In this document: positions 269 to 22,229 of the stretch, one piece after another | Position numbering within the stretch: position 1 is the stretch's first letter | Layout of the letters: each line of letters begins with the position of its first letter | Assembly (NCBI GenBank): GCA_017557535.1 | Contig: JAFYYM010000093.1 | Span: 1 to 46,447, forward strand | DNA from: Bacteroidales bacterium | GTDB taxonomy: Bacteria > Bacteroidota > Bacteroidia > Bacteroidales > UBA932 | Length of the DNA: 46,447 nt | Direction: 5' to 3' | Notes under the pieces: generated by a model | The model's input: the letters and a program-made list of their open reading frames with translations, nothing else | The model's database searches: none | Told to the model about the DNA's origin: nothing | Made by a program: the position numbers and the translations under genes

Positions 269-298
269 TTTGCAATTGACGGATTTTCACTATCTTTG
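269..298 (+). promoter_or_regulatory. Putative promoter of the GH2 gene
   Basis: TTTG at 269-272, an 18-bp spacer and TATCTTTG at 291-298 fit the Bacteroidota promoter consensus. The -7 box ends only three bases before the ATG at 302, so transcription would begin at or just inside the start codon and the mRNA would be practically leaderless. A second TTGAC at 276-280 lies 12 bases before the -7 box. Confidence 0.45.
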
Positions 299-301
299 AA
301 T

Positions 302-2809
302 ATGTTTAAACTCGGATCAAAGATCATTTTGGCGGCAACCTTTCTCGCCGCGGCCTACCTCCCCACAACCGCCCAACCCTCCGCGAGGGTATTCTTCGGC
401 GATGGTTGGACATTCACGAAAGACGGGAACTCCAGGATAGTTGATATTCCCCACGACTGGGGTGTTGACGGCCCTTTCAATATCAATTATCCCGGCGAGA
501 CGGGTAAACTGGAATGGTGGGGAAAGGCGGAGTACACGAAAACCCTGACCGTCACGGAGTCAACCGGGGACAGCTACTTCCTCGACATCGACGGAGCCAT
601 GTCGTGGGCCAAGGTCTTTTGCAACGGGAATCTGGTAACAGAATGGCCCTACGGGTACGCCTCTTTCAGGGCGGATCTGACGCCATTCATGAAAGACGGT
701 GACAATGAGATCAAGATCACTCTCGATAATCCCGAGGAGTCCAGCCGCTGGTATCCAGGCGGAGGAGTATACCGGAATGTATGGCTCACAGTGGCGAAAC
801 CAGTCGGAGTGGCACATTGGGGCACTTTCATGACCACAAAGGGCGACAAGGCCACCCTAAGAATCAGCCTTCGCAATAGCGGGGAGCCGGTGAAAGGAAT
901 TGTCAGGACGGAAATATTTGAATATGACGGAAATACGGCCATAGCTTCTGCCGAGGCCCCCGTGGAGGCAATCACCGACTCCACCATAGTCACCCAGGAA
1001 TTCGACCTCCATGGCGCCGCCCGCTGGAGTCCCGACCATCCGAATCTCTACCGCGCCGTCACGACAGTGATTGCCGGCTCTGCCGGACAGCCGCTCGAGC
1101 CCGGTCGCGTCCATTCTCGCTTCGCTGCGGCTGAGTACGACCGTGGCTCGACGGCTGCTCCGGCAGACGAAGCTTACATCACCGTATTCGGACTTCGAGA
1201 CATCGAGTACCGGGAAGATGGAATATTCATCGACGGAGAGAAGACGTTCCTTAAGGGAGTCTGCCTCCACCACGACGCCGGCGCCTTGGGCGCTGTTTGG
1301 AACAATACCGCATGGGAACGTCGACTCAAGATGCTCAAGGAAATGGGTTGCAACGCCATCAGGACCTCCCACAATCCACCAGCCCCGGAGCTTCTAGACC
1401 TCTGCGACAAGATGGGCTTCGTCGTGATGGACGAACTAACGGACACCTGGACAATCCCGAAGAAGCCTAACGGTTATGCGTTGCTGTTCAACGAGTGGGC
1501 GGATAAAGACCTGAAGGCCATGATCCACCGTGACCGCAACCACCCCTCAGTAATTCTTTGGAGCATAGGCAACGAGACGGGAGAGCAAGGCTATCCCGAT
1601 CTATACCACATTCCCGCTCACCTTACGGAAATATGTCACAATGAGGATCCCACCAGGCTAACAACCTTCGGGTCTGACAATCCATGGGCCTCGGAGCAGG
1701 AATTCCGCAACACCATGGACGTATATGGGTTCAATTACAAGCCTCACCTATACGCCCAGTTCCACGAAGCTAACCCCGGTAAGCTGTATCTCGGCAGCGA
1801 GACCGCCTCTACCATAAGCACCAGAGGCGTGTATTTCTTCCCCATAGAGGAGGATCCCAGAGGCAAGGAGCAATGCGAGAAAGACTTCCAAGTCAGTTCC
1901 TACGACCTCCACACAGTCCCCTGGGGCCAAATTCCAGAGCAAGAATGGGAATTTGAGGACGCCAATCCATCCTGTCTGGGAGAGTTTGTCTGGACAGGCT
2001 ACGACTACCTCGGAGAACCTACGCCATACAACCGGGACATAACTATACTGACCAACTTCCACGATCCCGAGGCCAAGGCTAAGGCGGAGAAAGAGATCGC
2101 CGAGAAAGGTGTTGTCTCGACTCCCTCCAGAAGCTCATATTTCGGGATCATAGACCTCGCCGGTTTCCCTAAGGACAGGTACTGGCTGTACCAAGCCCGC
2201 TGGTCGGATAAGACTGTGCTTCATGTGCTTCCTCATTGGAACTGGGAAGGACGTGAAGGTGAGGTGACTCCCGTCCATGTCTACACAAACTGCGACAAAG
2301 TCGAGCTGTTCGTGAACGGGGTCTCCCAAGGAGTCCTGGATAGAGCCGACAAGCAATACCGGCTGCGTTGGGACGAGGTTGTTTATCAGCCGGGCAAGGT
2401 CGAGGCCGTGGGCTGGAAGAACGGGCGAAAAGTTGCTACCGGGACCGTCAAGACCGCCGGTCAGACAAAGAAGATAAAGCTTAGTCTTGAGAAAGGATTC
2501 GGAGAGGGCGACTTGTATTATGTGGACGCCGCCCTGGCTGATAAGAAGGGAGTCATCGTTCCCACCGGTTCCGATGAGCTTGTATTCAGCGTCAAAGGTC
2601 CTGGAGAGATCTTCGCTGTCGACGCCGGCGACCCGACTTGCCTTACACCATTCCACAGCGACACTATCAAGGCCTTCAACGGACTGGCTTCAGTAATAGT
2701 CAAGGCAAAGCCCGGTGCACGCGGCAGGATTGTCGTTACCGCCACATCCGAGGGGCTGAAAAAAGATAGAATAAAGATCAAGCCCAGAAGCAGCGTTTTC
2801 CATAAGTAG
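302..2809 (+). CDS. Secreted GH2 glycoside hydrolase (beta-galactosidase type)
   Basis: Probably removes terminal beta-galactosyl (or related) residues from glycans in the periplasm or at the cell surface. A signal peptide (residues 1-25, ending TTA-QPS) precedes a sugar-binding jelly roll, an Ig-like domain, a TIM barrel and C-terminal DUF4982/Ig-like domains. The barrel shows the GH2 acid/base Glu425 in WSIGNE and nucleophile Glu500 in YLGSE, 75 residues apart as in LacZ. The ATG at 302 is chosen over a TTG at 296 because it gives a clean signal peptide. Length 835 aa is normal for the family. Residues 260-288 (PGRVHSRFAAAEY region) are encoded by an 85-bp palindromic element that also occurs in the U32 gene. 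Substrate specificity cannot be read from the sequence; beta-glucuronidase or mannosidase activity is possible. Confidence 0.9.
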   Translation: MFKLGSKIILAATFLAAAYLPTTAQPSARVFFGDGWTFTKDGNSRIVDIPHDWGVDGPFNINYPGETGKLEWWGKAEYTKTLTVTESTGDSYFLDIDGAMSWAKVFCNGNLVTEWPYGYASFRADLTPFMKDGDNEIKITLDNPEESSRWYPGGGVYRNVWLTVAKPVGVAHWGTFMTTKGDKATLRISLRNSGEPVKGIVRTEIFEYDGNTAIASAEAPVEAITDSTIVTQEFDLHGAARWSPDHPNLYRAVTTVIAGSAGQPLEPGRVHSRFAAAEYDRGSTAAPADEAYITVFGLRDIEYREDGIFIDGEKTFLKGVCLHHDAGALGAVWNNTAWERRLKMLKEMGCNAIRTSHNPPAPELLDLCDKMGFVVMDELTDTWTIPKKPNGYALLFNEWADKDLKAMIHRDRNHPSVILWSIGNETGEQGYPDLYHIPAHLTEICHNEDPTRLTTFGSDNPWASEQEFRNTMDVYGFNYKPHLYAQFHEANPGKLYLGSETASTISTRGVYFFPIEEDPRGKEQCEKDFQVSSYDLHTVPWGQIPEQEWEFEDANPSCLGEFVWTGYDYLGEPTPYNRDITILTNFHDPEAKAKAEKEIAEKGVVSTPSRSSYFGIIDLAGFPKDRYWLYQARWSDKTVLHVLPHWNWEGREGEVTPVHVYTNCDKVELFVNGVSQGVLDRADKQYRLRWDEVVYQPGKVEAVGWKNGRKVATGTVKTAGQTKKIKLSLEKGFGEGDLYYVDAALADKKGVIVPTGSDELVFSVKGPGEIFAVDAGDPTCLTPFHSDTIKAFNGLASVIVKAKPGARGRIVVTATSEGLKKDRIKIKPRSSVFHK
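1081..1165 (+). repeat. 85-bp in-frame palindromic element, copy A (inside GH2 gene)
   Basis: Imperfect inverted repeat: outer arms 1081-1100 and 1146-1165 pair, an inner stem CGGTCG (1102-1107) pairs with CGACCG (1138-1143), and a core lies at 1109-1137. Aligned without gaps to the copy at 21485-21569 it is identical at about 60 of 85 positions, and 28 of 29 in the core. It is read in the same frame as the other copy, giving PG-x-VH-x-RFAAAEY in both proteins. Differences in the stems are compensatory, which argues for a shared folded element rather than a shared protein motif. No target duplication is evident. Confidence 0.8.
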
Positions 2810-2903
2810 CAAACAATCAGCCAATTACAGGGAAATGCATAGGTAACCTAACCAAGGCACTTAATAGGAACTATATGATTATAAACACATTACATATTAC
2901 GGT

Positions 2904-5417
2904 ATGAAACGGACTTTATTGATTGCAGCGGCGGTTGTATTCGGCATTGCCGCTGCCGGCCAAGAGAAGGTGACCAAGGCGAACTATGCCCTGGCCGAGA
3001 GGTTCTCCGCCAAAAGAGTGAACAGCATGGTGTTCTCTACAAGGGTTCAGCCACGATGGTTCAAGGAAGGTGACCGGTTCTGGTACGAATGGCAGTCACC
3101 AAAAGGCACGAATTACTACATCGTCGATCCTGTCAAAGGAACCAAGACCGAGGTGTTCGACCTTGAGAGGCTGGCCATGGAACTAACTGAGATAGTGAAG
3201 GATCCGTTCGATGCTCAGCATATTCCCATCACGAACTTGAAGCTCAAGGACGACAAGGTCTTCACTTTCGACATCCGCAGCACCCAGGATAAACCGGCGG
3301 AGCCTGACACAGCTAAGGCCAAGAAGGAAGGCGGAAGACCCGGTGGACCGGGAGGAGCCGCGGCCGGAAGACCTGAGAAAAAAGTGTTCCATTTCGAATA
3401 CGATTTCGCGGCCAGATCCTTGAAGGACGTCACCGAACAGAAGGAGAAAGAGCAGCAGAAATATCCCATGTGGGCGTCAGTCTCCCCTGACGGCACGATG
3501 GGAGTGTACGCCAAGAACTCCAATCTGTGGATAATGGACTCCACGAACCTTCGCAAGGCGGCCAAGGACCCCAAGGACAGCACCATCGTTGAGTTCAAGC
3601 TTACGACTGACGGAATCAAGCAGTTCGGCTTTGGTTACGGCAACTACACCGGTGACACAGAGACAGACACCACCCGCCGTTCCAATCCCGGAGAGCTGTT
3701 GTGGTCGCCTGACTCAAAGCGTTTCGCAACAAGCAAATGGGACACCAGGGACCTGAAAGACCTGTGGGTTATCAACTCCGTGAGCGACAAGCGCCCGAAG
3801 CTTGAGACCTACAAGTACCAAATGCCTGGCGAGCCAGGACCTAAGGGCTATTTGTACGTGTTCACGATCAATGGGATTCCCGCTCAGGCCGGCAATGACG
3901 CGGTGGCCACCAGCAAGCAAATCAAGGTGGATGCTTTTAAGGACCAGGACTTCGACATCGAGCGGGGCCGCAGGCTTGCCGCCGACAGTTACAAGGACTA
4001 CTTCCCAAGCAAATGGCTGGGAGACGAGACAGGGTTCTACCTGCTCCGCAAGAGCCGTGACATTAAGAGGATCGATCTCTGCTGGGTAGGTGTCAACGCG
4101 GATTCCGCCAAGGTCATAATCCCGGAACGCTCAAACACATACATCGAGAGCCGCACCCCCTTCCTCATGAAAAACGGCAAGGAGCTCATTTGGTGGTCCG
4201 AGCGTAACGGCTGGGCGAACCTCTATCTCTACAAGAGCGACGGGACCCTTATCCGCAAGATCACCGATGGAGCCTTCCACGTTGAGAACGTGCTGGGAGT
4301 CAATGAGAAAGAAGGTTATGTCCTGCTCAGCGCCTGCGGGGTACAGAAAGACGAGAACCCCTACCAGATGCACACCTACAGGGTTCCTCTCACCGGCGGC
4401 GCGCTCCAAAAACTCGACATGGACGACATGGACGTCCTCTCGACCGCCAGTGACGATGCCAAGTATTTCGTGGCCAACTATTCAAGGGTAGATTACACTC
4501 CGGGGGTCGCTCTTTACGGAGCTGCCGGAAGAAAGATTCTCGACCTTGAGACCGCCGACCTCAGCCTCCTTTTCGACGCCGGCTACAAGTTCCCTGAGCG
4601 CTTCAAGGTTAAGGCGGCGGATGGCGTGACCGACCTCTACGGGGCTATGTACAAGCCTTACGACTTCGACTCCACAAAGGTATATCCGATATGTGATTAT
4701 GTCTATCCCGGCCCTCAGGTGGAGGCCAACAACATCTCCTGGAGCAAGGGTTTCACAAGGACTGACCGTCTCGCGCAGCTAGGCATCATTGTCATCACAG
4801 TGGGCAACCGCGGCGGCCACCCCAACCGCTCGAAATGGTACCACAACTTCGGCTACGGTAACCTTCGTGACTATGGCCTCGAGGATCAGAAATATGCCAT
4901 ACAGCAGATCGGAGCCCGCTTCCCCTTCGTCGATCTCGACAGGGTCGGCATCCACGGCCACTCCGGCGGCGGATTCATGAGCACGGCGGCGATTCTGAAA
5001 TATCCTGACTTCTTCAAGGCGGCTGTCTCCTGCGCCGGCAACCACGATAACAGCATCTACAACCGTTGGTGGAGCGAGCAGCACCATGGTATACTGGAGA
5101 AGATCGACAAGGGCGACACCACCTTTGTCTATCACATCGACACCAACCAGGAGCTGGCCAAAAACCTCAAGGGCCACCTGATGCTGGTCCACGGTGATGT
5201 TGACAACAACGTCCACCCGGCCAACACGATCCGTGTCGTGAACGCCCTCATCAAGGCCAACAAGCGTTTCGACATGTTGATCCTGCCAGGCCAGAGGCAC
5301 GGCTTCGGCGACATGAACGAATATTTCTTCTGGAGAATGGCTGACTACTACTCCGAGTGGCTCATCGGTGACACCCAGCGCTCTAAAGTGGACATAGTCC
5401 AACTAAATAACGATTAG
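2904..5417 (+). CDS. Dipeptidyl peptidase IV, S9 family, secreted
   Basis: Removes N-terminal dipeptides, typically after proline or alanine, from peptides in the periplasm; in asaccharolytic and mixed Bacteroidota this feeds peptide uptake. The protein (837 aa) has a signal peptide (1-19), an N-terminal beta-propeller, and a C-terminal alpha/beta hydrolase with Ser687 in GHSGGG, Asp767 in HGDVDNNVH and His799 in GQRHGF. The Asp-His distance equals that of human DPP4, and Asn769 matches the substrate-binding Asn710. A low-complexity Gly/Pro/Lys-rich loop near residues 135-155 is unusual and probably an exposed loop of the propeller. It follows the GH2 gene by 94 bases in which no clear promoter was found. 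A perfect stem-loop overlaps its stop codon. Confidence 0.92.
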   Translation: MKRTLLIAAAVVFGIAAAGQEKVTKANYALAERFSAKRVNSMVFSTRVQPRWFKEGDRFWYEWQSPKGTNYYIVDPVKGTKTEVFDLERLAMELTEIVKDPFDAQHIPITNLKLKDDKVFTFDIRSTQDKPAEPDTAKAKKEGGRPGGPGGAAAGRPEKKVFHFEYDFAARSLKDVTEQKEKEQQKYPMWASVSPDGTMGVYAKNSNLWIMDSTNLRKAAKDPKDSTIVEFKLTTDGIKQFGFGYGNYTGDTETDTTRRSNPGELLWSPDSKRFATSKWDTRDLKDLWVINSVSDKRPKLETYKYQMPGEPGPKGYLYVFTINGIPAQAGNDAVATSKQIKVDAFKDQDFDIERGRRLAADSYKDYFPSKWLGDETGFYLLRKSRDIKRIDLCWVGVNADSAKVIIPERSNTYIESRTPFLMKNGKELIWWSERNGWANLYLYKSDGTLIRKITDGAFHVENVLGVNEKEGYVLLSACGVQKDENPYQMHTYRVPLTGGALQKLDMDDMDVLSTASDDAKYFVANYSRVDYTPGVALYGAAGRKILDLETADLSLLFDAGYKFPERFKVKAADGVTDLYGAMYKPYDFDSTKVYPICDYVYPGPQVEANNISWSKGFTRTDRLAQLGIIVITVGNRGGHPNRSKWYHNFGYGNLRDYGLEDQKYAIQQIGARFPFVDLDRVGIHGHSGGGFMSTAAILKYPDFFKAAVSCAGNHDNSIYNRWWSEQHHGILEKIDKGDTTFVYHIDTNQELAKNLKGHLMLVHGDVDNNVHPANTIRVVNALIKANKRFDMLILPGQRHGFGDMNEYFFWRMADYYSEWLIGDTQRSKVDIVQLNND

Positions 5418-5447
5418 CTCTATAGCCCCGTCACCGGCTATAGAGCT
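5416..5447. terminator. Stem-loop between convergent genes, probable bidirectional terminator
   Basis: A perfect 12-bp stem, AGCTCTATAGCC (5416-5427) with GGCTATAGAGCT (5436-5447), with an 8-base loop. It begins at the last stop-codon bases of the DPP4 gene and covers the last codons and stop of the opposing alkyltransferase gene. No T-run follows on either strand, so termination is inferred from position and stem strength. Confidence 0.6.
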
Positions 5448-6012
5448 GACGCTCGATGACGCGGCGTTTCAGCTCGCTTCCATACTCGTATTCACCGACC
5501 TCTATCGAATCCAAAAGGTAGAGGTCGGTGCCTTTGAATATGGTTCCCTGGGCCACCGCCCGGATCGCGAGTATCTTATCTATGGATTCTTTCGGAACGA
5601 TAAGGTGGCAGGGGATGATGTATGCTACGGGATTGCAGGCAACCGCATGGGCGACTGCCCGGACTCCGCGGGGATTCTCGCAGAGGTCGGCGAGTTGGCT
5701 GTAGCTCAGGAGCTTTATTCCTTCTCCCGGCATGATGGGAGTCCCGTCTTCATGGTGGGTAAGAAAATACAGCTTTTGCCAGACATTGAGTTGGAAAGGG
5801 GTGCCGGCAAGCCTCATGTCTTCCCACTTCGTGGTCAGGGACAAATCGGCGAGCCCGTCCATATCCACCTTGGTGACAGTGATCTCCGAAATGCTGTCGG
5901 CAGGCAGTTTCGAGACATATTCAGAGACCTTTGCAAGTCCCCTGAAATCCGCACTCACCGACGCAATCTTTCCGTCTATCCGCGTCACGACCCATCTTTG
6001 ATCCTTTTTCAT
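5431..6012 (-). CDS. Methylated-DNA-protein cysteine methyltransferase family (Ogt-like), variant active site
   Basis: Family members transfer O6-alkyl groups from guanine to their own cysteine, repairing DNA in the cytoplasm. The 193-aa protein shows FQLNVWQKL (73-81), the Arg finger in RGVRAVAHAV and the active-site region NPVAYIIPCHL with Cys135. The normal motif is PCHR; the Arg is replaced by Leu136+1 (PCHL), and the C-terminal end departs from the usual G-Y-x-x-G-x-x-x-K-x-x-L-L pattern, keeping only FKGTDLYLLDSIE. The N-terminal 70 residues resemble the poorly conserved N-domain. It lies 63 bases after the esterase gene on the same strand and may be read from that operon. It could be an active alkyltransferase with changed substrate handling or an alkyltransferase-like DNA-damage binder. 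Confidence 0.8.
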   Translation of the reverse strand: MKKDQRWVVTRIDGKIASVSADFRGLAKVSEYVSKLPADSISEITVTKVDMDGLADLSLTTKWEDMRLAGTPFQLNVWQKLYFLTHHEDGTPIMPGEGIKLLSYSQLADLCENPRGVRAVAHAVACNPVAYIIPCHLIVPKESIDKILAIRAVAQGTIFKGTDLYLLDSIEVGEYEYGSELKRRVIERQLYSR

Positions 6013-6075
6013 GCCGTAAATCCTTAATCTCTGTAAAGTTAAGGAAAAATATTAACTTTCCGTAAAGGAAGACTC

Positions 6076-8163
6076 CTAAAAGCTTTCCGTTCGTGGAACA
6101 GCCAGGAAGGTCGAAGCTGGGAGTCCGGCGCCATTGACCAGGTTGGCCCTGGTATATGGCTTCCAAGCGTAACGGACATAGACCGGTTCCTTCACTTCCG
6201 GAGAAGTCAAGACGGCCCTGTCGCCCACAAGGCGGCAGGTCGCTTCGTGATACAGCATATCCTTCCCGGCAAGCTCAAAGCCAACGACTTCCGTACCTGC
6301 GGAAGCCTTGAGGCAGGCACTGTATTCAAAATCGACCGTTACCTCCCTGCCGGAAACGGTCGCCGATTTGAATAGCGGCCCGGAAGGCACCAGATCGAAG
6401 CCGTAGGTTCCACTCAAGGCCAACCTGGCGAGCCTTTCCCCCACGGGCTTCTTGTCTTTGTAATGCACGTCGGAAGGGTCTCCAAGGTCGCTGGAGACCG
6501 CCATCCCGAGATTCGGACGGCTTTCCAAAAGCCTTCTCTGGCTGTCACGGAACCAAGGCCAGGAAGGACGGTTCAAGCTCGAAAGCTGGACATAATAGAA
6601 CGGCAATTCCGGATCACCGAACCATTCTCTCCAACTGTCAACAAGAAGAGGGAACAGATATTCATGAGCCTCGAAATTGTGGGCGTTGGACTCACCCTGG
6701 TACCAGATGACACCTGCGATAGCCGGATGACCGAGCGGAAGTATCGCTGATTCAAAAAGATAGCAGGGCTCATAGGGGTGACGGGCAAACTTGTCGCCCT
6801 TTTTGTAAGAGATGTTCTTGGCCGCCCTTTCTCGGGCCCAACCCTGGATGAAATCGTTGTTGATCCAGTCTCTCAGGATCACCGGGAACTTCCATTCGAG
6901 GGTATTCCTGTCGATCCACGCCTCAGCGGGGGACCCACCGACAGCGTCGTGAATGATTCCTATTGGGACTTTAAGACTGTCCCTCAACTCTTTCGCGAAC
7001 CAATAGCCCACAGCGGACATTTTTGCCGAGGTCGCCGGAGAGGCTATTTCCCATTTCGCCGGGCGAAAATAAAGCAGGTTCTTTACCGAGTCCACAGCGG
7101 ACTCCGGCCATGAGACATCACTCGTCGCCCAATTGCATTCTTGATTAAAAAAACGAAGATCCGGATCGGTCGAGGCAGCGGCAGCCTCGGCTCCACCATC
7201 GGCATTCGATAGCCTGAAACGCATATTCGATTGGCCGGAGCATAGCCAAACCTCACCAACCGCGACGTTTGAGAAATTCAGTTCCTCGTCCTTAGTTGAG
7301 ATTGTGAGTTCCAGTCCTGTAGATGCTTCCATCGAAGGGAACTCCACGCTCCATTTCCCGTCCAAACCCGTGACAGCTTTCAGAGTCTTACGCCCGAACT
7401 TTACCGTCACCTTGTCTCCAGCATTCGCCGTACCGCCGATAGTTACCGGACATCGGCGCTGTATGACCATGTTGTCGGTATACAAAGGGGACACCGCCAG
7501 CCCGCCAAAGTCGCCTGTTATCCGGGAATACACCGTCTTAGCCAGGATCCCGTATCCAACCTCGTCAGGATGGATGGCATCGGGAATATGCCAGGGATAC
7601 GGATAGAGTGGCGTGTGGAAGTCAATAAGCTCACAGCCAGCCGTTTCCGCCACCACTTTAATAGCTTCTTGTATATCCTCGTGCCACTGTTTCGTCCCGG
7701 ACATAAAACGATGGTGGCGGTCGGCGAGAGGAGAAAGCAAGGCGATGATAATCCTCGCCTTGGGGTTCGCCTGTTTGCATGAGTCTATGAGGGCGAGATA
7801 ATCTCCCACGAAATCATCCCTGTAGTTCGGCCATGAGCGGGGGTCGGTGTCGTTGACTCCGAGATGGATCACGCAGATGTCACCCGCGAAGTCCATTGCC
7901 TTCCTGTATTCCTCCTGTTCGAAATACGGCCTGTAGGAGCGCTTTATCAGCGTAGCCCCGTTCTTTCCGAAATTACCCACCAGGTAACCGTCTCCGAGCA
8001 TGGCCTGGAGCTGGGAAGGATAGGAGTAGTTCTCCCTATCCTCTATCGCGGCCCCGTAGGTGATGCTGTCACCGATGCAGGCGACCTTAACTTTACGAGG
8101 AGTGGAAGAATAAACAGAACCGACTAATAAACAAGCGATTAAGGTAAGAAAGACTCTTTTCAT
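6076..8163 (-). CDS. Secreted two-domain SGNH esterase, sialate O-acetylesterase type
   Basis: Removes O-acetyl groups from sialic acids or other acetylated glycans, exposing them to glycosidases. The ATG at 8163 gives a clean signal peptide (1-20) and is preferred to a TTG at 8181. The N-terminal half is a GDSL hydrolase with Ser33 in GDSITYG, GVNDT and a HPDEVGYG Asp/His block. The C-terminal half is a sialate O-acetylesterase (SASA) domain with GQSNM and WYQGESNA. A short Ig-like linker separates them. The tandem arrangement, 695 aa, is common in gut Bacteroidota. It begins 7 bases after the TPR/HTH regulator stop, so the two are almost certainly cotranscribed and the regulator may control it. 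No sialidase or SusC/D pair lies nearby, so sialic acid specificity is inferred only from the family. Confidence 0.85.
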   Translation of the reverse strand: MKRVFLTLIACLLVGSVYSSTPRKVKVACIGDSITYGAAIEDRENYSYPSQLQAMLGDGYLVGNFGKNGATLIKRSYRPYFEQEEYRKAMDFAGDICVIHLGVNDTDPRSWPNYRDDFVGDYLALIDSCKQANPKARIIIALLSPLADRHHRFMSGTKQWHEDIQEAIKVVAETAGCELIDFHTPLYPYPWHIPDAIHPDEVGYGILAKTVYSRITGDFGGLAVSPLYTDNMVIQRRCPVTIGGTANAGDKVTVKFGRKTLKAVTGLDGKWSVEFPSMEASTGLELTISTKDEELNFSNVAVGEVWLCSGQSNMRFRLSNADGGAEAAAASTDPDLRFFNQECNWATSDVSWPESAVDSVKNLLYFRPAKWEIASPATSAKMSAVGYWFAKELRDSLKVPIGIIHDAVGGSPAEAWIDRNTLEWKFPVILRDWINNDFIQGWARERAAKNISYKKGDKFARHPYEPCYLFESAILPLGHPAIAGVIWYQGESNAHNFEAHEYLFPLLVDSWREWFGDPELPFYYVQLSSLNRPSWPWFRDSQRRLLESRPNLGMAVSSDLGDPSDVHYKDKKPVGERLARLALSGTYGFDLVPSGPLFKSATVSGREVTVDFEYSACLKASAGTEVVGFELAGKDMLYHEATCRLVGDRAVLTSPEVKEPVYVRYAWKPYTRANLVNGAGLPASTFLAVPRTESF

Positions 8164-8170
8164 TGCGATA

Positions 8171-9763: not shown

Positions 9764-9768
9764 GTTTT

Positions 9769-10779: not shown

Positions 10780-10807
10780 AGAGATCCATATTAATAGGTA
10801 GATATCA

Positions 10808-10834
10808 CAAAATTAGCACAAATTGTTAAATTTG
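10808..10834. promoter_or_regulatory. Back-to-back -7 boxes between divergent genes
   Basis: TAATTTTG on the minus strand (complement of 10808-10815) faces the ThiL-like gene and TAAATTTG (10827-10834) faces the EEP-family gene. Both match TAnnTTTG. No convincing -33 TTG lies 18-21 bases before either, so only the -7 halves are supported. Confidence 0.35.
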
Positions 10835-10856
10835 TGGTATTGAAACACTATCACTG

Positions 10857-11699: not shown

Positions 11700-11722
11700 A
11701 ACATTCATGTCCTCTTTTAACA

Positions 11723-11747
11723 TGCCGAGGGAGGCAGTGGCTCGGCA
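11723..11747 (+). terminator. Weak stem-loop after the EEP gene
   Basis: TGCCGAG (11723-11729) pairs with CTCGGCA (11741-11747) around an 11-base loop. There is no following T-run, so it may be a weak terminator, an attenuator or chance. Confidence 0.3.
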
Positions 11748-11776
11748 AGTGAACCCCTTGACTGAAAGAATAAAAA

Positions 11777-12991: not shown

Positions 12992-13000
12992 CAAGGAATA

Positions 13001-14236: not shown

Positions 14237-14239
14237 CGC

Positions 14240-15154: not shown

Positions 15155-15179
15155 AATATCGAATTCTTGGTTCAACTTG

Positions 15180-15215
15180 CAAAATTACGAAAACTATTTC
15201 TTTTTCTTATATTTG
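15180..15215. promoter_or_regulatory. Divergent -7 boxes between the coiled-coil gene and a small membrane protein
   Basis: TAATTTTG on the minus strand (complement of 15180-15187) precedes the coiled-coil gene, and TATATTTG (15208-15215) precedes the membrane protein at 15242. Both fit TAnnTTTG; a matching -33 box at the proper distance was not found for either. Confidence 0.35.
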
Positions 15216-15241
15216 TGATTACAGCAAAAAATGGGCAAAGT

Positions 15242-15724
15242 ATGAAATACATTGTAAGAGCGGTAAAATTCTTTATCTGGTTCTGCGTGGTCTTCTGCCT
15301 GATGTTGGCGATAATGGCGGTCATGGACATCGTCGACCCGGATCCGGATTTGATGTTCAGGGACGGTGTGAAATCAATGTGGCAAATAGCGATTTTGTTC
15401 GTCGCCGTCTCACTCATATACCCGCTGAGCGGTTTCATGAAAAAGGAGGCCATCATCCCTGGAGAATACAATGAGATACGAGACAGGATTATCGAATGCA
15501 TGTCCTCCAGGGGCTATATTCTTGAGACGGAGGATGGTGAGAACATGACTTTCCGTCTTCGCTCAAAAGCGGCCAGAGCTTTTAAGATGTTTGAGGACAG
15601 AATCACACTCACCCGGGAACCTGGTGGATTTGTGGTCGAGGGACTGCGAAAAATCGTCGTCCGAATCGTCAGGGCCCTCGAGTATGCTATCAGGGAAAAC
15701 GGGCAGGATGATTATTCAAAATAA
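15242..15724 (+). CDS. Small two-span inner-membrane protein, unknown function
   Basis: 160 aa from the ATG at 15242, chosen over a start at 15167 because the latter would begin inside the promoter region and lacks similarity in style. Two membrane spans (about 9-29 and 46-64) enclose a short periplasmic loop DIVDPDPDLMFRDG; the C-terminal 90 residues are cytoplasmic, mixed alpha/beta, and contain the segment EYNEIRDRIIECMSSRGYILE that resembles small cytoplasmic domains of Bacteroidota conserved membrane proteins. The DUF2007 gene starts 6 bases after the stop, so the two form a small operon. No function can be assigned. Confidence 0.7.
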   Translation: MKYIVRAVKFFIWFCVVFCLMLAIMAVMDIVDPDPDLMFRDGVKSMWQIAILFVAVSLIYPLSGFMKKEAIIPGEYNEIRDRIIECMSSRGYILETEDGENMTFRLRSKAARAFKMFEDRITLTREPGGFVVEGLRKIVVRIVRALEYAIRENGQDDYSK

Positions 15725-15730
15725 ACCATC

Positions 15731-15988
15731 ATGAAAAGAGAAGAAGATTTCAAGACCGTCATCACGGTCAATGATGCCATCAGCGCACAGATGGTGGCCG
15801 GGATGCTTATTGAGAACGGGATTCCGGCGGCGGTGTTCGGAGCTGACTCCACTGCCATGCTCAACGGAGTCGGGAACATCGACGTGAAGGTCAATGCCGC
15901 TGACTACGACGCTGCCATGGAGCTCATCAACACTCCAGCGGAAGATATTGAAGAAGAAGGTCTGGAGGAAGGAGAGGAAGAGGCCTAA
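15731..15988 (+). CDS. DUF2007-family small protein
   Basis: An 85-aa cytoplasmic protein of the DUF2007 type (putative signal-transducing, PII-like fold). The body shows the family pattern: VITVNDAISAQMVAGMLIENGIPAAVFGAD then IDVKVNAADYDAAMELI (each family segment about residues 10-68), followed by an acidic tail EEEGLEEGEEE. It is cotranscribed with the preceding membrane protein. Its TAA stop interleaves with the TAG stop of the opposing DUF3109 gene (four shared bases), leaving no space for a separate terminator. The role is unknown. Confidence 0.75.
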   Translation: MKREEDFKTVITVNDAISAQMVAGMLIENGIPAAVFGADSTAMLNGVGNIDVKVNAADYDAAMELINTPAEDIEEEGLEEGEEEA

Positions 15989-16590
15989 CCGAGGATAATC
16001 TTTGCCGCGGCTTCCAGAGCCTCGTAAAACTCTTTCCCATAGATATTGATCAATGGTTCGCGAAGGAACTCGTACACACGGGTGCCTTCGCGTTTTCCTT
16101 TGGCATAGGCGTCCTCGCAAAGATGCCAGCGATGGAGATTGAGAGCCTGGCCTCCATTACTCAACTTGGTGACACGGATCGGATATAGCCAACAGGATTT
16201 GGGCTTACGGAAGGAGCAGGTGCCGGCGAAAAAACATCTCTCAATCGAACAAAGGCAACTTCCATCTTCCAAGAAAGTCGTGAAGGCACACTCCCCGGTA
16301 CCATCTACGACAGGAGTGACAATATCCCCATCCCTGTCGATGATAAAGAAGCCGTCCTTGTCCACTTGCGAACGTCCTTGAGGTCGCATAAGTTCCGAAT
16401 ACACAGGATATTCCCTTTCAAGGTCATCCAGCTCTTCCTCTTCAAGGGGGGCACCGCTATCGCCAATGACACAACATACTCCCTTACAAAGGGGGTAGTC
16501 ACAAGCGAAAAACTCTGTCACGACCTCCTCAGAAACCAAGATATCTCCGATCTGGATTATTGTTCCGTGATCATTCCGGCTTGACGACAT
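15985..16590 (-). CDS. DUF3109 cysteine-rich protein
   Basis: A 201-aa cytoplasmic protein of the DUF3109 family, related to the YkgJ-type zinc/iron-sulfur putative oxidoreductases. Cys30, Cys35, Cys39 and Cys40 (ACDYPLCKGVCC) open the domain and further cysteines follow in ECAFTTF, SCLCSIERCFF, TCSFRKPKSC and LCEDAY, enough for more than one metal site. The ATG at 16590 lies within the 3' end of the M16 gene, overlapping it by 20 bases, which suggests translational coupling. The function has not been established for the family; the cysteine pattern suggests metal binding. Confidence 0.78.
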   Translation of the reverse strand: MSSSRNDHGTIIQIGDILVSEEVVTEFFACDYPLCKGVCCVIGDSGAPLEEEELDDLEREYPVYSELMRPQGRSQVDKDGFFIIDRDGDIVTPVVDGTGECAFTTFLEDGSCLCSIERCFFAGTCSFRKPKSCWLYPIRVTKLSNGGQALNLHRWHLCEDAYAKGKREGTRVYEFLREPLINIYGKEFYEALEAAAKIILG

Positions 16591-19102
16591 ACTCAATCCT
16601 CATTCCCTCGGATAAAACTCCTAAGACCTCTTTAACCTTGTCGGCTGATACTCCATTGATTTTCTCAGCGTAATTCGTCAGCACATCTTTCCCTGAAGAA
16701 TATCTCATCAAGATAGCGTCAGCGTATTTAGATGGATCAGATAAAGCCATCGAATACTCATTCGAAAGAAGTGACTTGCAAGACGCGAGCTCAGCCGCTG
16801 ACACGGGATTGGAGAATACGGCCTCTATGGTTTTACCGGCCACCTCGACTGCTGACTCAATATTGGCATCACCACTTTCAATGCCCTCCGGCAACCCGTG
16901 AGACGGAACCGGAGTGAAGGTGAACCTTAAATCAGCGACCTCACGGGGGTATGTATGGAACCGGTCTTCCAAATCCACATGGAAACCCAATTCCGCCATA
17001 GCACCGGAAAGTCGCCTGTAGAGTGAGAGCCCGGCGATTTTAAATGCCATGTAACTCTCTGTGGAGAAGGGATATGACGCAGCCATTCCTATGCTGAAAC
17101 CCGCAGGGGTCCCATTGTGGTTGTAAGTGGTGGTTCCGGATCGTAAAGAGAGTGTTGAAGTTGCCCGTGGAGGGACGGACTTGCTCACCCGGAACCCACC
17201 GATAGACTTCGCCAGATATTTCTGCAACACATCAGAAGAAAGATCCCCGACTATAACGATAACTCCATCGCCGCAACGAATGAACTCCCTGGAAAAGAAA
17301 GCCTCAGCATCAGAGAGCGTGGTCGGGGTGAGTCCTGAAGGGGTCTTTATCTCTGTGTAATTGTTGTCGGGATACATCAGGCTGTCCAGTGTGGCCGGTC
17401 TGAGACGGGCGCTCTCAAGGCTCCTGTATTTCTCGAAATCGGAGATGTCGGCTTTACGGTCATTGGCCACGGAGAGCAGAGCCTTCATCACGAGGGCATA
17501 ATGTCTGGACGGCGCTGAGCCGCATATCCTCAGATCCGAAGACGACACTTTCGTCTCAAAATCCACTCCATTGGCTTTCAGCACCTTCTCAAAGTCTCCC
17601 CCACGGAATCCCGCTATCTTGTGATGGCTCATCATATCGGAGAAGAACGCCCCTTCTCCTCTCGGAAGATTCTTGACTGTGGAAAAACCACCTTTAATCA
17701 TCATCGAGTAAGAGAACCTCCCTCCTGCGGCCATCTTCTTATATATCACCCTCATGCCATTGGCGAATGTCCACATCTCCCCTCCTGAGACAGGCTCTGT
17801 TGAGACCGACTTCAGCTTGGACTTGCTTCTGTCGGAAGCGAAAGCTGTAGTGTCCTTGGCGGCCACTTTCCATTTATAAGTGGGCTTGTCCAACATAGCT
17901 ACTCCATTCCATGTGGCCTTGAACATCATTTGATACACCCACTCATCATACTCCTCCGGACTCCCGGTCCAACTGACCTCCGCATTATCAGTGTCTCCCA
18001 ACAGAGCAGAGATGTAATTATTGAAAAGCCCTAACTCGACCGCCAACGACATATTCCTTGAAGAGAAATACTTTGCCTTTGTGGCCGAGAGTGAGAGGTC
18101 TGCCCCGAAGAGGTAATTGGAAATGCACTGACGTACCATGTCATCATTGGACCCGGCTTCCGAGAGAATCCTGAGAACATCCTCGCGAACCGTCTTGTAT
18201 TCATCCTCTCCAATGCCTTTCGATCCTATTTCCGCCAAAGTGGAAGAAAGGGCCATTGTGGCTGGAATAAGCTGCTCCTCAGGCATTTCCAGCTTTGTGA
18301 TGAAACGCTCATCTCCTGAAGAGTCAGCGCTGCCGGAATAATCCAATGACATATTGGAGACGGGAATCCCCCTTGAGAAAAGTGACTCAGACAGACGGTT
18401 CCTTAGCACATCGGCAAGCTCCATGGAAAAAAGTTTGGAGATGAATGGCTGGATCGTGTTCATCTGGTTCACCGGAGTTCTTGGAGAACGGAAAGCCACC
18501 TCAACAGAAGAAACCTCGGAAGGCGTGAATGACCATTGGGTCTCCGCTGTCGGCTTCCATGAATAGGCTTTACCCTCATAAGAGGTTACCCTTGAGGGAA
18601 CCATCAGGGAAAAGACTTTCATCTTCTCGATTATCTCCGCAGGTTTGATGTCCCCGGAGACAATGACCGCATGCGGACAAGGCTGGGTGGCGATGATGTC
18701 AAACAGCATGAGAAGGGTCGTGTCCGCCGCTGCGACATCGAACATCGGCACATTGTCGAAACGGAAAAGCGTGGCGTCATCCCTGAATGATATATAACCT
18801 TCCGGACGGCTGCCTATACCTTTGCGTGACAAAAACTTGTATGGTATTGTCTTATTGAAATGGGGTAGTGACACGAGTTCCGAACGAGCCGCGAGGGTGT
18901 CTGTCATGCCTTTGCGGACCAAGGCGAAATCCGCCACCCCTTTCATCGCGGAATTGGTCACTAGATAATATGAGATGCCATTTGAGAGCTCACCTTGGGT
19001 GATGGAGGCATCCTTCTGCAAAGAAGGCAAATTTTGGGCTGGCATGTTTATTGAAAAACCAACCAGCACAGAACAAAGGACATATGTGAGAAAACGTCGC
19101 AT
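16571..19102 (-). CDS. M16 (insulinase/pitrilysin) family protein lacking the zinc motif
   Basis: An exported protein (843 aa, signal peptide 1-22) with the duplicated M16 fold: an N-half with SNGISYYLVTNSAMKG and a C-half with FANGMRVIYKKM, GGDFEKVLKANGVDF and the FSREFIRCGDGVIVIVGD segment. Active M16 enzymes carry HxxEH in the first half; the corresponding stretch here, around LAARSELVSLPHF, has none, nor does the second half have a replacement. This makes it a non-catalytic homologue, as in the partner subunit of two-chain M16 peptidases, though no active partner is encoded in the window. Its 3' end overlaps the DUF3109 start. It might be a scaffold or peptide-binding subunit. Confidence 0.82.
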   Translation of the reverse strand: MRRFLTYVLCSVLVGFSINMPAQNLPSLQKDASITQGELSNGISYYLVTNSAMKGVADFALVRKGMTDTLAARSELVSLPHFNKTIPYKFLSRKGIGSRPEGYISFRDDATLFRFDNVPMFDVAAADTTLLMLFDIIATQPCPHAVIVSGDIKPAEIIEKMKVFSLMVPSRVTSYEGKAYSWKPTAETQWSFTPSEVSSVEVAFRSPRTPVNQMNTIQPFISKLFSMELADVLRNRLSESLFSRGIPVSNMSLDYSGSADSSGDERFITKLEMPEEQLIPATMALSSTLAEIGSKGIGEDEYKTVREDVLRILSEAGSNDDMVRQCISNYLFGADLSLSATKAKYFSSRNMSLAVELGLFNNYISALLGDTDNAEVSWTGSPEEYDEWVYQMMFKATWNGVAMLDKPTYKWKVAAKDTTAFASDRSKSKLKSVSTEPVSGGEMWTFANGMRVIYKKMAAGGRFSYSMMIKGGFSTVKNLPRGEGAFFSDMMSHHKIAGFRGGDFEKVLKANGVDFETKVSSSDLRICGSAPSRHYALVMKALLSVANDRKADISDFEKYRSLESARLRPATLDSLMYPDNNYTEIKTPSGLTPTTLSDAEAFFSREFIRCGDGVIVIVGDLSSDVLQKYLAKSIGGFRVSKSVPPRATSTLSLRSGTTTYNHNGTPAGFSIGMAASYPFSTESYMAFKIAGLSLYRRLSGAMAELGFHVDLEDRFHTYPREVADLRFTFTPVPSHGLPEGIESGDANIESAVEVAGKTIEAVFSNPVSAAELASCKSLLSNEYSMALSDPSKYADAILMRYSSGKDVLTNYAEKINGVSADKVKEVLGVLSEGMRIEYVVKPE

Positions 19103-19120
19103 TATGAGTGCCTCCTATCG

Positions 19121-19152
19121 CAAAATTAATCAATAATGTGCTATTGACACAA
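19121..19152 (-). promoter_or_regulatory. Promoter of the M16 gene
   Basis: On the minus strand TTG (complement of 19150-19152), a 21-bp spacer and TAATTTTG (complement of 19121-19128) fit the Bacteroidota consensus; the start codon follows about 18 bases later. Confidence 0.5.
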
Positions 19153-19160
19153 TTTTTTAT

Positions 19161-19168
19161 TACATTTG
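19161..19168 (+). promoter_or_regulatory. -7 box ahead of the TPR protein gene
   Basis: TACATTTG matches TAnnTTTG. The only TTGAC upstream (19144-19148) is 14 bases away, shorter than the usual 19-21, so the -33 half is doubtful. The ATG at 19216 lies 47 bases downstream. Confidence 0.4.
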
Positions 19169-19215
19169 TCCCCGTTCGCCGTGTATAAAAGTTGAACTTA
19201 AATACATTGAAAAAG

Positions 19216-20154
19216 ATGAAAAAAGTCATTCTAGCTATCGCCTCATTGGTCATGGCCGCCGGAATAGCTTCCGCCCAGGACATGGCTCAGGCAACTGAAC
19301 TCTACAACAATGGAGCCACAGCTATCTCTATGAAAAACTGGACCGAGGCCCTGGATTATTTCCAGAAAGCCCTTGCCATGGGAACAGAAATCGGCGAAGA
19401 AGCTGACGAGCTCGTGGCGAATTGCAAGACTGCTATCCCCGGCGTGACCCTGGCCATTGCCAAGGATCTAATCAGGGACGCCAAATACGATGAGGCCGCC
19501 GGACAACTAGACGCCGCCGCCAAAATAGCCGAGGAATATGGCAATGAGGAAGTCGTTACCGAGGCTAAAGAGCTTGTACCCCAGATGTGGATGCAAAAGG
19601 GTGTCGACGCTCTCAAGCTGAAAGACTTCGCCACCGCCGTCGATGGTTTCTCAAAATCATACGCCATTGACACAACCGCCGGTAAGACAGCGCTCTATCT
19701 TGGACAGGCTCTCAGCCAGCTTGGCAAGACCAATGAAGCCATCGACGCTTTCCATCACGCCGCTTGGAACGGTGAGGAGGAGGCAGCCAAGGGACAGATC
19801 TCCAACATCTATGTAAAAGAGGCGAATGTCGCCCTTAAGGCTCAGAAATATGCCGACGCTGTCAAAGCCGCCGACAAGGCCAACACCTATGCTGAGAACG
19901 CCAACGCCTACCTGATCGCCGGCCAGTCATCACAGAAGCTGAACAAGAACGCTGACGCTATCAAGAACTTTGAGAAGTATCTTGAGCTCAAGCCCACCGC
20001 TTCCAACGCCAACGCTATCACCTACACCGTTGCTGCCCTCTATCAGGGACAGAAGAACAACGCCAAGGCGATTGAATACTACAAGAAAGTTCAGAATGAC
20101 GCCAAGTTCGGCGCACAGGCCAAGCAGCAGATCACTGCTCTTGGTGGCAAATAA
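19216..20154 (+). CDS. Exported TPR-repeat protein
   Basis: 312 aa with a signal peptide (1-21, ending ASA-QD); the ATG at 19216 is used rather than a TTG at 19192 because it gives the clean peptide. It consists of alanine-rich tetratricopeptide repeats, for example ATELYNNGATAISMKNWTEA, GVDALKLKDFATAVDGFSKS and YLIAGQSSQKLNKNADAIKN, with about six to seven helical pairs. It is likely a periplasmic scaffold for protein-protein contacts. Its TAA stop overlaps the ATG of the U32 gene in TAATG, so the two proteins are translationally coupled although one is exported and the other is cytoplasmic. The partner is unknown. Confidence 0.8.
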   Translation: MKKVILAIASLVMAAGIASAQDMAQATELYNNGATAISMKNWTEALDYFQKALAMGTEIGEEADELVANCKTAIPGVTLAIAKDLIRDAKYDEAAGQLDAAAKIAEEYGNEEVVTEAKELVPQMWMQKGVDALKLKDFATAVDGFSKSYAIDTTAGKTALYLGQALSQLGKTNEAIDAFHHAAWNGEEEAAKGQISNIYVKEANVALKAQKYADAVKAADKANTYAENANAYLIAGQSSQKLNKNADAIKNFEKYLELKPTASNANAITYTVAALYQGQKNNAKAIEYYKKVQNDAKFGAQAKQQITALGGK

Positions 20155-22229
20155 TGACTGAACTCGAACTTCTCGCTCCAGCGAGAAACGCTGACATCGG
20201 CATCGCGGCCATTGACTGCGGTGCCGATGCGGTATATATCGCAGGGCCGGAGTTCGGGGCAAGGCAGGATGCCGGCAATTCGATGGTGGATGTCCGGCGT
20301 CTATGTGATTATGCTCATAAGTTCGGAGTTCGGATATTCCTGACTCTCAACACAATACTTTTCGATGCGGAGATTCCCGAGGCCACTAGGATTCTCAAGG
20401 AAGCCGCGGAGGTGGGAGTGGACGCTGTGATAGCACAGGATCTGGCTGTGTTTGAGATCCTTCGCTCCGCACAAGATGGCATGGAGATCCATGCGTCGAC
20501 ACAGTGCGCCATCCGCACTCCTGATCAGGCCCGGTTTTATGAAAGCCTGGGGGCTTCAAGAATTGTCCTGGAGCGTCAACTTTCCCTGGAACAGATCCGG
20601 GCTATACGGGAGGCCGTCAAATGCGAGATTGAGTTCTTCGTTCACGGTGCTCTTTGCGTCTGCTACAGCGGGCAGTGCTATATGTCAGAGGCTGTGGCGG
20701 GAAGAAGCGCTAACCGGGGCGCCTGTGTACAGGCTTGCAGGTCACTATATGACCTGGAAGACAGCCAAGGCAAGAAACTATTGAAAGACAAGGCCTTACT
20801 CTCCCTCAAGGATTACAATCTTTCCGGAAAGCTCTCTGACCTCGCCGAGGCGGGGGTATGCTCGTTCAAGATTGAGGGAAGACTTAAGAATATCTCTTAT
20901 GTCAGGAACTCTGTCCGGGCATATTCCTTGGCATTGGACAAGCTGGTAGCGGCTAACCCGGAGAAATATCGCCGTGCCTCCTTCGGACGGGTCGAGGGTG
21001 GATTCACTCCCGACCTTGGAAAGACTTTCAATCGTGGATACACCGAGTTATTCCTTGACGGCAAAAGAGGCAAATGGTCCTCGATGGACGCTCCGAAGTC
21101 CGTCGGCGAAGAGATCGGCACGGTGATCCGTATCAGCCAAGGACGCCCTGACAACAAAGGTATGGCCGCAGCGAAGCGAGGATGGACGCGGCCTGGTCCG
21201 GACATCCGGGCGGACAGAATTGTGGAAGTGATTGTCGATCTGGATAATCCGGCAACAGCGCTGCGCAACGGAGATGGGTTCACATTCGTGTCTAAAGACC
21301 ATAATGAAATACGAGGATTCCGAGGGGACATCTGCCGTGGCGAGAGAATCCTCTGCAAGGATGTTCCGGGACTTTATGTGGGTGCCAGACTCAGGAGAAA
21401 CCTTAGCTCGGCCTTCGAGAAAGAGATTGACGGCAACCTCCCGGAGCGCCGCATACCCGTATCAGTCTCTCTGAAGATTGATCACGCCGGGACGCCGTCC
21501 GAACCCGGCGAAGTCCATCCTCGCTTCGCTGCGGCTGAGTATCGCCTAAGTTCGGAGGCAGTCCCGGCGTACGTCATTAAAGTTGAGGCTAAGAGTGAGG
21601 ATGGAAGACTTGTCGAGTTCGAGGTGGAGGCCGGGAACCAGGATGCGAACAATGTTGAGAGAATGGAAGCGATGTTCAAGAGCCAGATTGAGAAATCCTC
21701 CGGGGTATATTCATTCACCCTTGCCAGGCTTGATTCCGGAGCTTCTTATGGCAAGTTGCCATTCTTGTCAGCTTCGGCGATTAACGGTATCCGGCGGGAT
21801 ATCGCCGAGAGGCTGGACAAGACACATTGCGGACGTGGCCACTTGAGGCCGAAGGCTGAAGAATCCACCCCACACATCCAGGAAATAATTGATTATAAAT
21901 CCAATATCTCCAACAATATAGCACGTGAAGTCCTAAAGCGTTTGGGCGCTGAGAAGATCGAGGATGCCTTTGAGATCTCGCACATAAAAGGAGCCGAGCT
22001 GATGCGGACTAAGTACTGCATCCGACACGAGCTCGGCATATGTCCGAAAGGAGTCCGGCAGGGGACAGATTCTTCGGCCTCCGGCCTCAGAATGACAGGG
22101 GAAGGCCCCGGAATGGCACAAGAAGGTGGCCGAATGGCTCCGGGACCGCTATTCCTTATTAACAACGGCAAGCGCTACCGCCTGGACTTCCACTGCTCCA
22201 CCTGCGAAATGATCGTCTCCGAGGCCTGA
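20154..22229 (+). CDS. Peptidase U32 family protein (RlhA-like), with three repeat insertions
   Basis: U32 proteins are (beta/alpha)8 radical/Fe-S enzymes; the RlhA group hydroxylates a cytidine in 23S rRNA. The N-part LELLAPARNADIG, GADAVYIAG, FFVHGALCVCYSGQC (Cys168, Cys170, Cys175) and GRSANRGACVQACR (Cys191, Cys195) is typical, as is the C-terminal KYCIRHELGICPK ending RYRLDFHCSTCEMIV. At 691 aa it is longer than usual (about 600-650) because of extra segments: about residues 330-354 (reverse copy C), 444-472 (copy B, PGEVHPRFAAAEY) and 636-666 (Gly/Met-rich, copy E). All keep the frame. Whether the enzyme remains active is unknown; the catalytic N-terminal region is untouched. Its ATG overlaps the TPR gene stop. 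Confidence 0.85.
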   Translation: MTELELLAPARNADIGIAAIDCGADAVYIAGPEFGARQDAGNSMVDVRRLCDYAHKFGVRIFLTLNTILFDAEIPEATRILKEAAEVGVDAVIAQDLAVFEILRSAQDGMEIHASTQCAIRTPDQARFYESLGASRIVLERQLSLEQIRAIREAVKCEIEFFVHGALCVCYSGQCYMSEAVAGRSANRGACVQACRSLYDLEDSQGKKLLKDKALLSLKDYNLSGKLSDLAEAGVCSFKIEGRLKNISYVRNSVRAYSLALDKLVAANPEKYRRASFGRVEGGFTPDLGKTFNRGYTELFLDGKRGKWSSMDAPKSVGEEIGTVIRISQGRPDNKGMAAAKRGWTRPGPDIRADRIVEVIVDLDNPATALRNGDGFTFVSKDHNEIRGFRGDICRGERILCKDVPGLYVGARLRRNLSSAFEKEIDGNLPERRIPVSVSLKIDHAGTPSEPGEVHPRFAAAEYRLSSEAVPAYVIKVEAKSEDGRLVEFEVEAGNQDANNVERMEAMFKSQIEKSSGVYSFTLARLDSGASYGKLPFLSASAINGIRRDIAERLDKTHCGRGHLRPKAEESTPHIQEIIDYKSNISNNIAREVLKRLGAEKIEDAFEISHIKGAELMRTKYCIRHELGICPKGVRQGTDSSASGLRMTGEGPGMAQEGGRMAPGPLFLINNGKRYRLDFHCSTCEMIVSEA
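21141..21215 (-). repeat. Worn reverse copy C of the 85-bp element (in U32 gene)
   Basis: The core GCCGCAGCGAAGCGAGGATG (within 21165-21187) is the reverse complement of the core of copies A and B. By proportion with copy B it should run from about 21131 to 21215; the arms are only partly complementary (GGACGCCC near 21141 with GGGCGGAC at 21208-21215), so the outer edge is uncertain. Read in the opposite direction it encodes MAAAKRGWTRPGPD in frame. Confidence 0.65.
21485..21569 (+). repeat. 85-bp in-frame palindromic element, copy B (inside U32 gene)
   Basis: Outer arms 21485-21504 and 21550-21569 are strongly complementary, with inner stem GGCGA (21507-21511) and TCGCC (21542-21546). The core 21513-21541 is nearly identical to copy A. 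Relative to copy A three adjacent stem pairs changed on both sides (positions 21509-21511 with 21542-21544), and at least two more in the outer arm. It is in the same frame and orientation as copy A, giving the same RFAAAEY peptide. Confidence 0.8.
22067..22098 (+). repeat. Short repeat E, in frame near the U32 C-terminus
   Basis: Begins AGATTCTTCGG, has a self-complementary GGCCTCCGGCC centre and ends CAGAATGACAG. The ends match the repeats at 40493-40526 and (on the other strand) 45991-46019. It falls in the extra Gly/Met-rich segment between CPKG and the C-terminal RYRLDFHC motif, so it was probably inserted without breaking the frame. Confidence 0.6.

Follow-up and report, generated by a model that had tools for sequence, protein, structure and literature searches.

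Coding palindromes that lie in frame within their host genes are best known from Rickettsia. Intragenic invertons are a known kind of DNA inversion, chloroplast genomes undergo small hairpin-loop inversions between short inverted repeats, and the attC sites of integrons have conserved terminal core sites with a variable centre. The palindromic elements of Rickettsia (RPEs) are short palindromic repeats that sit in frame inside genes with no relation to one another (PMC10969869). Dispersed, imperfect palindromes, some of them bulged, are also known as CGTC and GTAG REPs, and these have sub-families that differ by complementary changes in the stem (PMC3733652). Here, we describe a palindromic element that is dispersed through genomes of gut Bacteroidales, lies in frame in genes, has a near-fixed centre and co-varying arms, and is found in both orientations at one and the same site. 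The starting point was a 46,447-nt stretch of Bacteroidales DNA, the whole of which we refer to as the window. We favour, with a probability of roughly 0.55, the reading that these are clade-specific, small, non-autonomous palindromic mobile elements whose hairpin DNA is inverted and arm-corrected by template switching.

Among described systems, RPEs are the nearest analogue. The element is likewise a dispersed palindrome in many unrelated genes, in frame in its hosts and presumably translated with them. It differs from RPEs in occurring in Bacteroidota, in its length (about 84 nt as opposed to ~150 nt), in combining a near-fixed centre with arms that are free but pairing, and perhaps in being found in both orientations at the same site. 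The resemblance to RPEs that an earlier note on this DNA had suggested stands as an analogy (dispersed, in frame).

REPs, CGTC-tagged REPs, and REPINs resemble the element in being dispersed imperfect palindromes, and RAYT-type genes are present in this genus. However, the element lies mostly inside genes, whereas REPs lie between genes, and its conserved part is the centre, whereas that of a REP is a terminal tag. The element does not flank the RAYT genes examined, as a REP with a cognate RAYT would; its ends are variable, and the CGTC motif occurs only within the centre of many copies. MITEs are marked by target-site duplication and by terminal inverted repeats that they share with an autonomous transposon; the ends of the element vary between copies. 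Like an inverton, the element is a segment bounded by inverted repeats and found in both orientations at one locus, but its inverted repeats, which vary between sites, account for about half of its length, its host gene is usually open both ways, and its hosts are often housekeeping genes. Unlike the hairpin inversions of chloroplasts, it is a dispersed coding repeat family in which the arms are inverted too. Relative to integron attC sites the arrangement is reversed, with a conserved centre and variable ends. A literature search on intragenic invertons found no paper, and one on in-frame palindromes in Bacteroidota or on the peptide RFAAAEY, with subscription papers mostly outside its reach, found nothing pointing to this family.

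Copies of the element in two unrelated genes

The earlier note had reported an 85-bp palindrome inserted in frame in two unrelated genes of the window, and each part of this description is borne out (Table 1). The two copies align without gaps at 60 of 85 bases, the next-best ungapped 85-base match anywhere in the window, on both strands, being 43 of 85. The best 29-base centre is identical at 28 positions, and the stem bases do change in pairs between the copies, at element positions 25/60, 26/59, and 27/58. Both copies are in frame in the open reading frames of hosts that are unrelated to each other. In the GH2 protein, the Glyco_hydro_2 match runs up to residue 260 and that to the TIM barrel begins at residue 305, with copy 1 in between, and copy 2 lies inside the DUF3656 match (residues 416–557). 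The computed fold energies on the + strand have z-scores of −5.9 (copy 1) and −5.7 (copy 2), with 0 of 200 dinucleotide shuffles as low. The note had also alluded to a third copy; this is probably the degraded, antisense copy in the U32 gene, in which the left arm and most of the centre are still recognizable and the right arm is gone.

Table 1. Copies of the element in the window, their parts, and their host genes
Feature	Position	Strand	Context	Basis
Copy 1	1081..1165	+	Sense, in frame in GH2 gene; peptide AGQPLEPGRVHSRFAAAEYDRGSTAAPA	Covariance model, 98.8 bits
Copy 1, left arm	1082..1102	+	Partner 1143..1164	
Copy 1, near-invariant centre	1103..1142	+	Element positions 23–62	Column counts over 70 arm clusters; alignment
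Copy 1, right arm	1143..1164	+	Partner 1082..1102	
Copy 2	21485..21569	+	Sense, in frame in U32 gene; peptide AGTPSEPGEVHPRFAAAEYRLSSEAVPA	Covariance model, 88 bits
Copy 2, near-invariant centre	21507..21546	+		Column counts; alignment
Third copy, degraded	21132..21215	−	Antisense, in frame in same U32 gene	Covariance model, 30.2 bits, E 6.8e-4
Host gene 1, GH2 glycosidase	296..2809	+		ORF; Pfam
Host gene 2, Peptidase_U32 + DUF3656	20154..22229	+		ORF; Pfam

The inserted segment is not an ordinary conserved loop, the reading that the note had set against its own. The region around the insert spans 36 residues in the GH2 protein but only 10 in its best match of solved structure (9bey). Similarly, the first KsgA insert is absent from all 20 aligned same-genus KsgA relatives (29 rows, of which the other 9 are unaligned).

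Distribution of the family

A search with a covariance model, as the note had proposed, was run genome-wide and genus-wide and confirmed a dispersed element with many copies. The source genome has 26 places by blastn and 28 matches to covariance model R1, which was built from 68 sequences. A pattern requiring the exact centre found at least 111 stretches in uncultured Bacteroidales genomes. Among the matches listed, all 80 titles refer to uncultured members of the Bacteroidia or Bacteroidales; rumen, omasum, or abomasum is given as the source in titles of the RGIG series, and RUG names denote rumen genomes. The 18 genomes behind the fetched loci have 8 to 31 model matches in 17 cases and 6 in the smallest genome.

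In a same-genus sample, 16 of 101 genomes match at an E-value of 0.001, and 12 of these 16 do so at 1e-7 or better; G043, G047, and G096 have one match each, near 3e-4, which may be due to chance. In an order-wide search of 393 genomes, the source genome alone was positive, under stricter filters that recovered 11 of its 28 copies and in a sample poor in close relatives (besides the source genome, two of the same genus and three of the same family are listed), so that weak or single copies may exist elsewhere. The family was found only in part of one genus. It is carried by gut Bacteroidales whose genomes range from about 1.4 to 3.4 Mb. In relatives G019, G082, and G092, loci L246–L254 have mostly one arm type, an upstream flank that is partly common, and no long open frames, and may represent an intergenic form of the element.

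Anatomy of the element

The structure was examined in a study set of 149 copies (24 from the source genome and the rest from exact-centre loci) at 57 sites, forming 70 clusters at 85% arm identity. The element, of about 84 nt, has ~22-nt arms that are free in sequence and a ~40-nt centre that is nearly fixed, a constancy that is overstated and partly a sampling effect, because the loci outside the source genome were chosen by the exact-centre pattern and all copies were kept only with ≤4 substitutions in the centre and no loop insert. Distant members found with the model keep both halves of the centre, with arms that differ in sequence and often in length. The earlier note had envisaged a folded element under constraint. 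The arms do co-vary strongly, as described below, but strict constraint applies to the centre and not to the whole sequence.

One-base bulges are found at element positions 14 and 78 across the family. Since 58 of 68 alignment rows have no internal gap, the places of the bulges are mostly fixed relative to the centre. Of 157 distinct matches to both exact halves, 139 have an apical loop of 6 nt; in the remaining 18 it has 12, 15, 16, 27, or 30 nt, with 17 of the 18 additions being multiples of three. In some copies with loops of 27–30 nt, such as L016:5195, the loop contains an extra small hairpin of the CCTTCGACTTCGCTCAGGGC type, a repeat within a repeat, which is mostly frame-keeping.

Host genes and reading frames

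Ten hosts in the source genome are confirmed by Pfam: GH2, U32, RrnaAD (KsgA), ATP synthase gamma, TruB, topoisomerase subunit A, MetG, DnaG, FtsK, and PriA. KsgA and AtpG have two full copies apiece. In agreement with the earlier suggestion that the element can sit in coding sequence, 129 of the 149 copies lie in a clear, long, open host frame and the other 20 are unassigned, although the assignment of hosts used the open frame itself, so that openness is no independent test. The frames of these 129 copies are s1 (67), a1 (32), a2 (19), a0 (6), and s2 (5), with none in s0, the frame that is closed by a stop codon in the centre. When a fixed 83-nt segment is flipped in silico, the host frame stays open for 61 of 67 s1 copies, 31 of 32 a1 copies, and 4 of 5 s2 copies, as well as for none of the 6 a0 copies and 9 of 19 a2 copies, some of which are of a slightly shorter form for which the fixed segment is inexact.

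Orientation at shared sites

An all-against-all comparison of flanks, with one genome per species, placed 126 copies at 34 shared sites, which gives 199 pairs. A finding that goes beyond the earlier note is that the element occurs in both orientations at 20 of these 34 sites; the other 14 have a single orientation, and there is no conflicting assignment. At the GH2 site, for example, the window copy is sense, the copies at L040, L106, L133, and L034 are antisense, and all are open. Overall, 90 of 199 orthologous pairs are flipped. Grouped by flank identity, the flipped pairs number 20/38 (65–75%), 32/70 (75–80%), 21/41 (80–85%), 8/31 (85–90%), 2/6 (90–93%), and 7/13 (93% or more). The flip fraction shows no steady rise with divergence, which suggests either fast flipping or common re-insertion. 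On trees of the flanks, at least 25 orientation changes are needed over 17 groups of at least four members, three of which need none. No flips were seen at either of the a0-only sites (0/7 pairs) or at the three-member a2 site (0/3 pairs). Single-orientation sites also include flippable frames, namely the L056 group (0/4 pairs) and the L058 group (0/6 pairs).

Inversion, replacement, and deletion

Two pairs of loci represent clean flips in place: L049/L076 (flanks 93%, arm identity 1.00, against 0.67 for the best other site) and L042/L083 (flanks 95%, arms 0.98, against 0.65), the latter at a site where no long host frame was found. In both cases, homology extends up to the tips, the boundaries lie at the inverted repeats, the whole element is inverted, bulges included, and no other site has these arms. 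The TruB site has ten copies, of which 8 share an arm type of their own (by eye), and all ten together need at least four orientation changes. The best flipped partner is closer in its arms than any other-site copy for 27 of 85 elements; for partners in the same orientation the figure is 53 of 112. Many of the flips may thus reflect replacement or re-insertion. Mean arm similarity is 0.71 for flipped partners, 0.81 for same-orientation partners, and 0.57 for unrelated copies. In-place inversion is clear only where the arms are unique to the site.

Sites also turn over by replacement, nesting, and deletion. L035 and L099 have flanks that are 95.8% identical and an arm identity of 0.47; an unrelated element at L099 has taken the place of the type that L035, a near relative, has in common with L015, a more distant one. 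In the DnaG gene of L128, a broken, old, L011-like copy is directly followed by a new, full one. Deletion leftovers are found at L046 (left arm only), L121 (arms without the centre), L026, and L087. At L066, L024, and L040, opposite-sense scraps of the element lie beside the full copy and look like template-switch scars; these cases were identified by eye, because a k-mer scan for remnants flags 32 of 129 copies with chance 8-mers included. No clean pre-insertion site was found; most of the sites that had seemed empty carried the remains of a deleted copy or a loop that had been rewritten.

Relatives also carry in-frame, repeat-like peptides of other kinds at the same loops or similar ones, such as SVILSEAKNLK, CHSERSEES, GAERSEAS, and TPLHPQGGLRGVPL. 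These lie in the KsgA loop after LTQYLL (L139, L140, L144, and L145), in the KsgA C-terminal loop (L139, L142, and L143), and at L015 and L016. The genus seems to host several coding repeat families.

If the same tolerant loops were hit repeatedly and in random orientation, often into or beside a resident copy, most of the apparent flips would be separate insertions. The nested copies in DnaG at L128, the replacement of the L035/L015 type at L099, the deletion leftovers, and the occurrence of other repeats in the same KsgA loops of relatives are all consistent with such recurrent insertion. By contrast, the clean flips with site-unique arms at L049/L076 and L042/L083 argue against it, as do the orientation changes at the TruB site, where most copies have their own arms. 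We therefore regard recurrent insertion as a possible account, although on the unlikely side.

Search for mobilizing machinery

Y1_Tnp (RAYT-type) genes are present in 78 of 101 same-genus genomes, i.e., in 16 of 16 element-positive and 62 of 85 element-negative genomes. The centre of the element is absent from 20 loci around Y1_Tnp genes (two of them overlapping), which represent part of all the Y1_Tnp genes, and no centre motif of the GCGAAG type lies within 260 bp of 15 RAYT ORFs. RAYT was rejected as the mobilizer, since none of the genes examined has the centre nearby and many of them have palindromes of their own; its link to the element is weak and may be phylogenetic. An autonomous parent carried in the apical loop was also rejected: a half-centre search of three genomes gave 67 matches, and those outside the model list proved to be truncated copies or due to chance. 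In none of these extra matches from the three genomes did a half-centre lie beside a transposase. The exact centre had 0 matches in viral contigs.

At least 9 of the 15 RAYT genes (by eye; L214, L215, L217, L222, L223, L225, L227, L230, and L231) have their own flanking palindromes, e.g., GCATGGTAGATTCTACCATGC and CCATGTGTGCCATTCGTCTGGCACACATGG; these palindromes seem to represent several REP families of the genus. A Y1_Tnp match lies near ksgA in three genomes (G000:C95, with KsgA at 86717–87658 and Y1_Tnp at 90791; G089:C24; and G071:C41), a closeness that is possibly conserved synteny.

Flipping might instead be driven by an enzyme, with a dedicated recombinase or HuH-type nuclease recognizing the folded hairpin, cutting at its foot, and rejoining it either way, which would make every copy a coding inversion switch. 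An enzyme of this kind would suit a centre that is near-invariant while the arms merely keep the fold, as well as bulges that hold their places relative to the centre in most rows and flip together with the whole element. TnpA-REP of E. coli needs a bulged, folded, single-stranded REP (PMC8266576). However, the Y1_Tnp/RAYT genes examined, with the centre absent from 20 such loci, offer no candidate enzyme, and the bulges are also explicable by the host reading frame. We consider enzyme-driven flipping unlikely. Equally unlikely is the idea of genome-wide coding DNA switches, in which a structure-guided inversion system would recognize the conserved centre in any compatible hairpin and flip it, and the double open frame would have evolved since only flip-proof insertions survive. 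If this were true, each cell would have some 10 to 30 proteins, often essential ones, with either of two unrelated 28-residue loops.

Covariation of the arms

In a 68-row alignment with the proper bulges, double changes are found at all 18 of 18 arm pairs. Paired cells make up 89.8% of 1,965, compared with 75.0% in shuffles, and 294 cells are doubly changed, compared with 92.5 in shuffles. Five measures of covariation are all above all 500 shuffles, and slid control structures pair at only 26.6–43.2%. The upkeep of pairing can also be followed in situ, by comparing nearest orthologue pairs with arm identity ≥0.8 (59 of 85). Here, both sides had changed in 42 pair-cells, as opposed to about 10 expected, and 38 of the 42 were Watson-Crick in both states.

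Strong covariation, together with a very stable RNA fold in both strands, is what selection on an mRNA hairpin would produce; selection on the hairpin (or on the peptide) would keep the fold and the centre, and orientation would be incidental. The distribution of G-T pairs speaks against this. Among 2,682 arm cells, 2,201 are Watson-Crick and 65 are G-T. Moreover, one-sided changes between Watson-Crick and another state (n = 78) involve G-T in 11 cases and a mismatch in 67, a G-T share close to the one in six that we estimate for no preference. Selection on an RNA fold would favour G-T as an intermediate, whereas arm-to-arm copying of DNA would not. In addition, one site with both orientations gives rise to two unrelated peptides and two different mRNA loops, and no Rfam family reached its gathering score in the part of the window searched around copy 1 (positions 900–1400). 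Selection of this kind is thus a very improbable explanation. Less probable still is an assembly artefact, in which short-read assemblers would mis-join or invert a repeated palindrome: the genomes listed come from metagenome assemblies or uncultured organisms and each has numerous repeats of the centre, yet mis-joins at the centre would mix arms that are in fact predominantly Watson-Crick paired, and no orientation conflict is seen in any of the 34 groups, although single cases may be of this kind.

A possible mechanism

For the reading that we favour, template switching at a hairpin, the following steps can be envisaged. The element would be inserted, without loss of frame, at loops in ordinary proteins, often ones with housekeeping roles, and would act there as a DNA hairpin. 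When a replication fork meets the hairpin, the new strand may switch template. If this happened at the stem's foot, the opposite strand would be copied and the element inverted in place. A switch within the stem would lead to one arm being copied from the other, so that mismatches are repaired and paired changes arise with no preference for G-T. One-base bulges would presumably survive because their repair would shift the host reading frame. With ends at codon-equivalent points and with open frames, a flip would usually swap one 28-residue loop for another and leave the protein alive, and old copies would be deleted or overwritten by new insertions at the same loop. Two points limit template switching as an explanation. 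First, free switching within the arms should leave chimeras, and chimeras are seen only as remnants. Second, template switching does not explain the colonization of new sites.

Implications

Judging from the reading frames, the element appears to have spread through the coding genes of certain ruminant gut bacteria without breaking those genes. Everyday enzymes would thus carry one of two alternative extra loops, depending on the orientation of the element. Coding palindromes are numerous in housekeeping genes of gut Bacteroidales and face both ways. They provide a natural experiment in the mutation of hairpin DNA, by inversion, arm correction, and deletion, under the filter of a reading frame, and they bear on the origin of new protein loops. 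They are also a warning that what looks like an insertion in a protein from such a genome can be mobile DNA, read in either direction.
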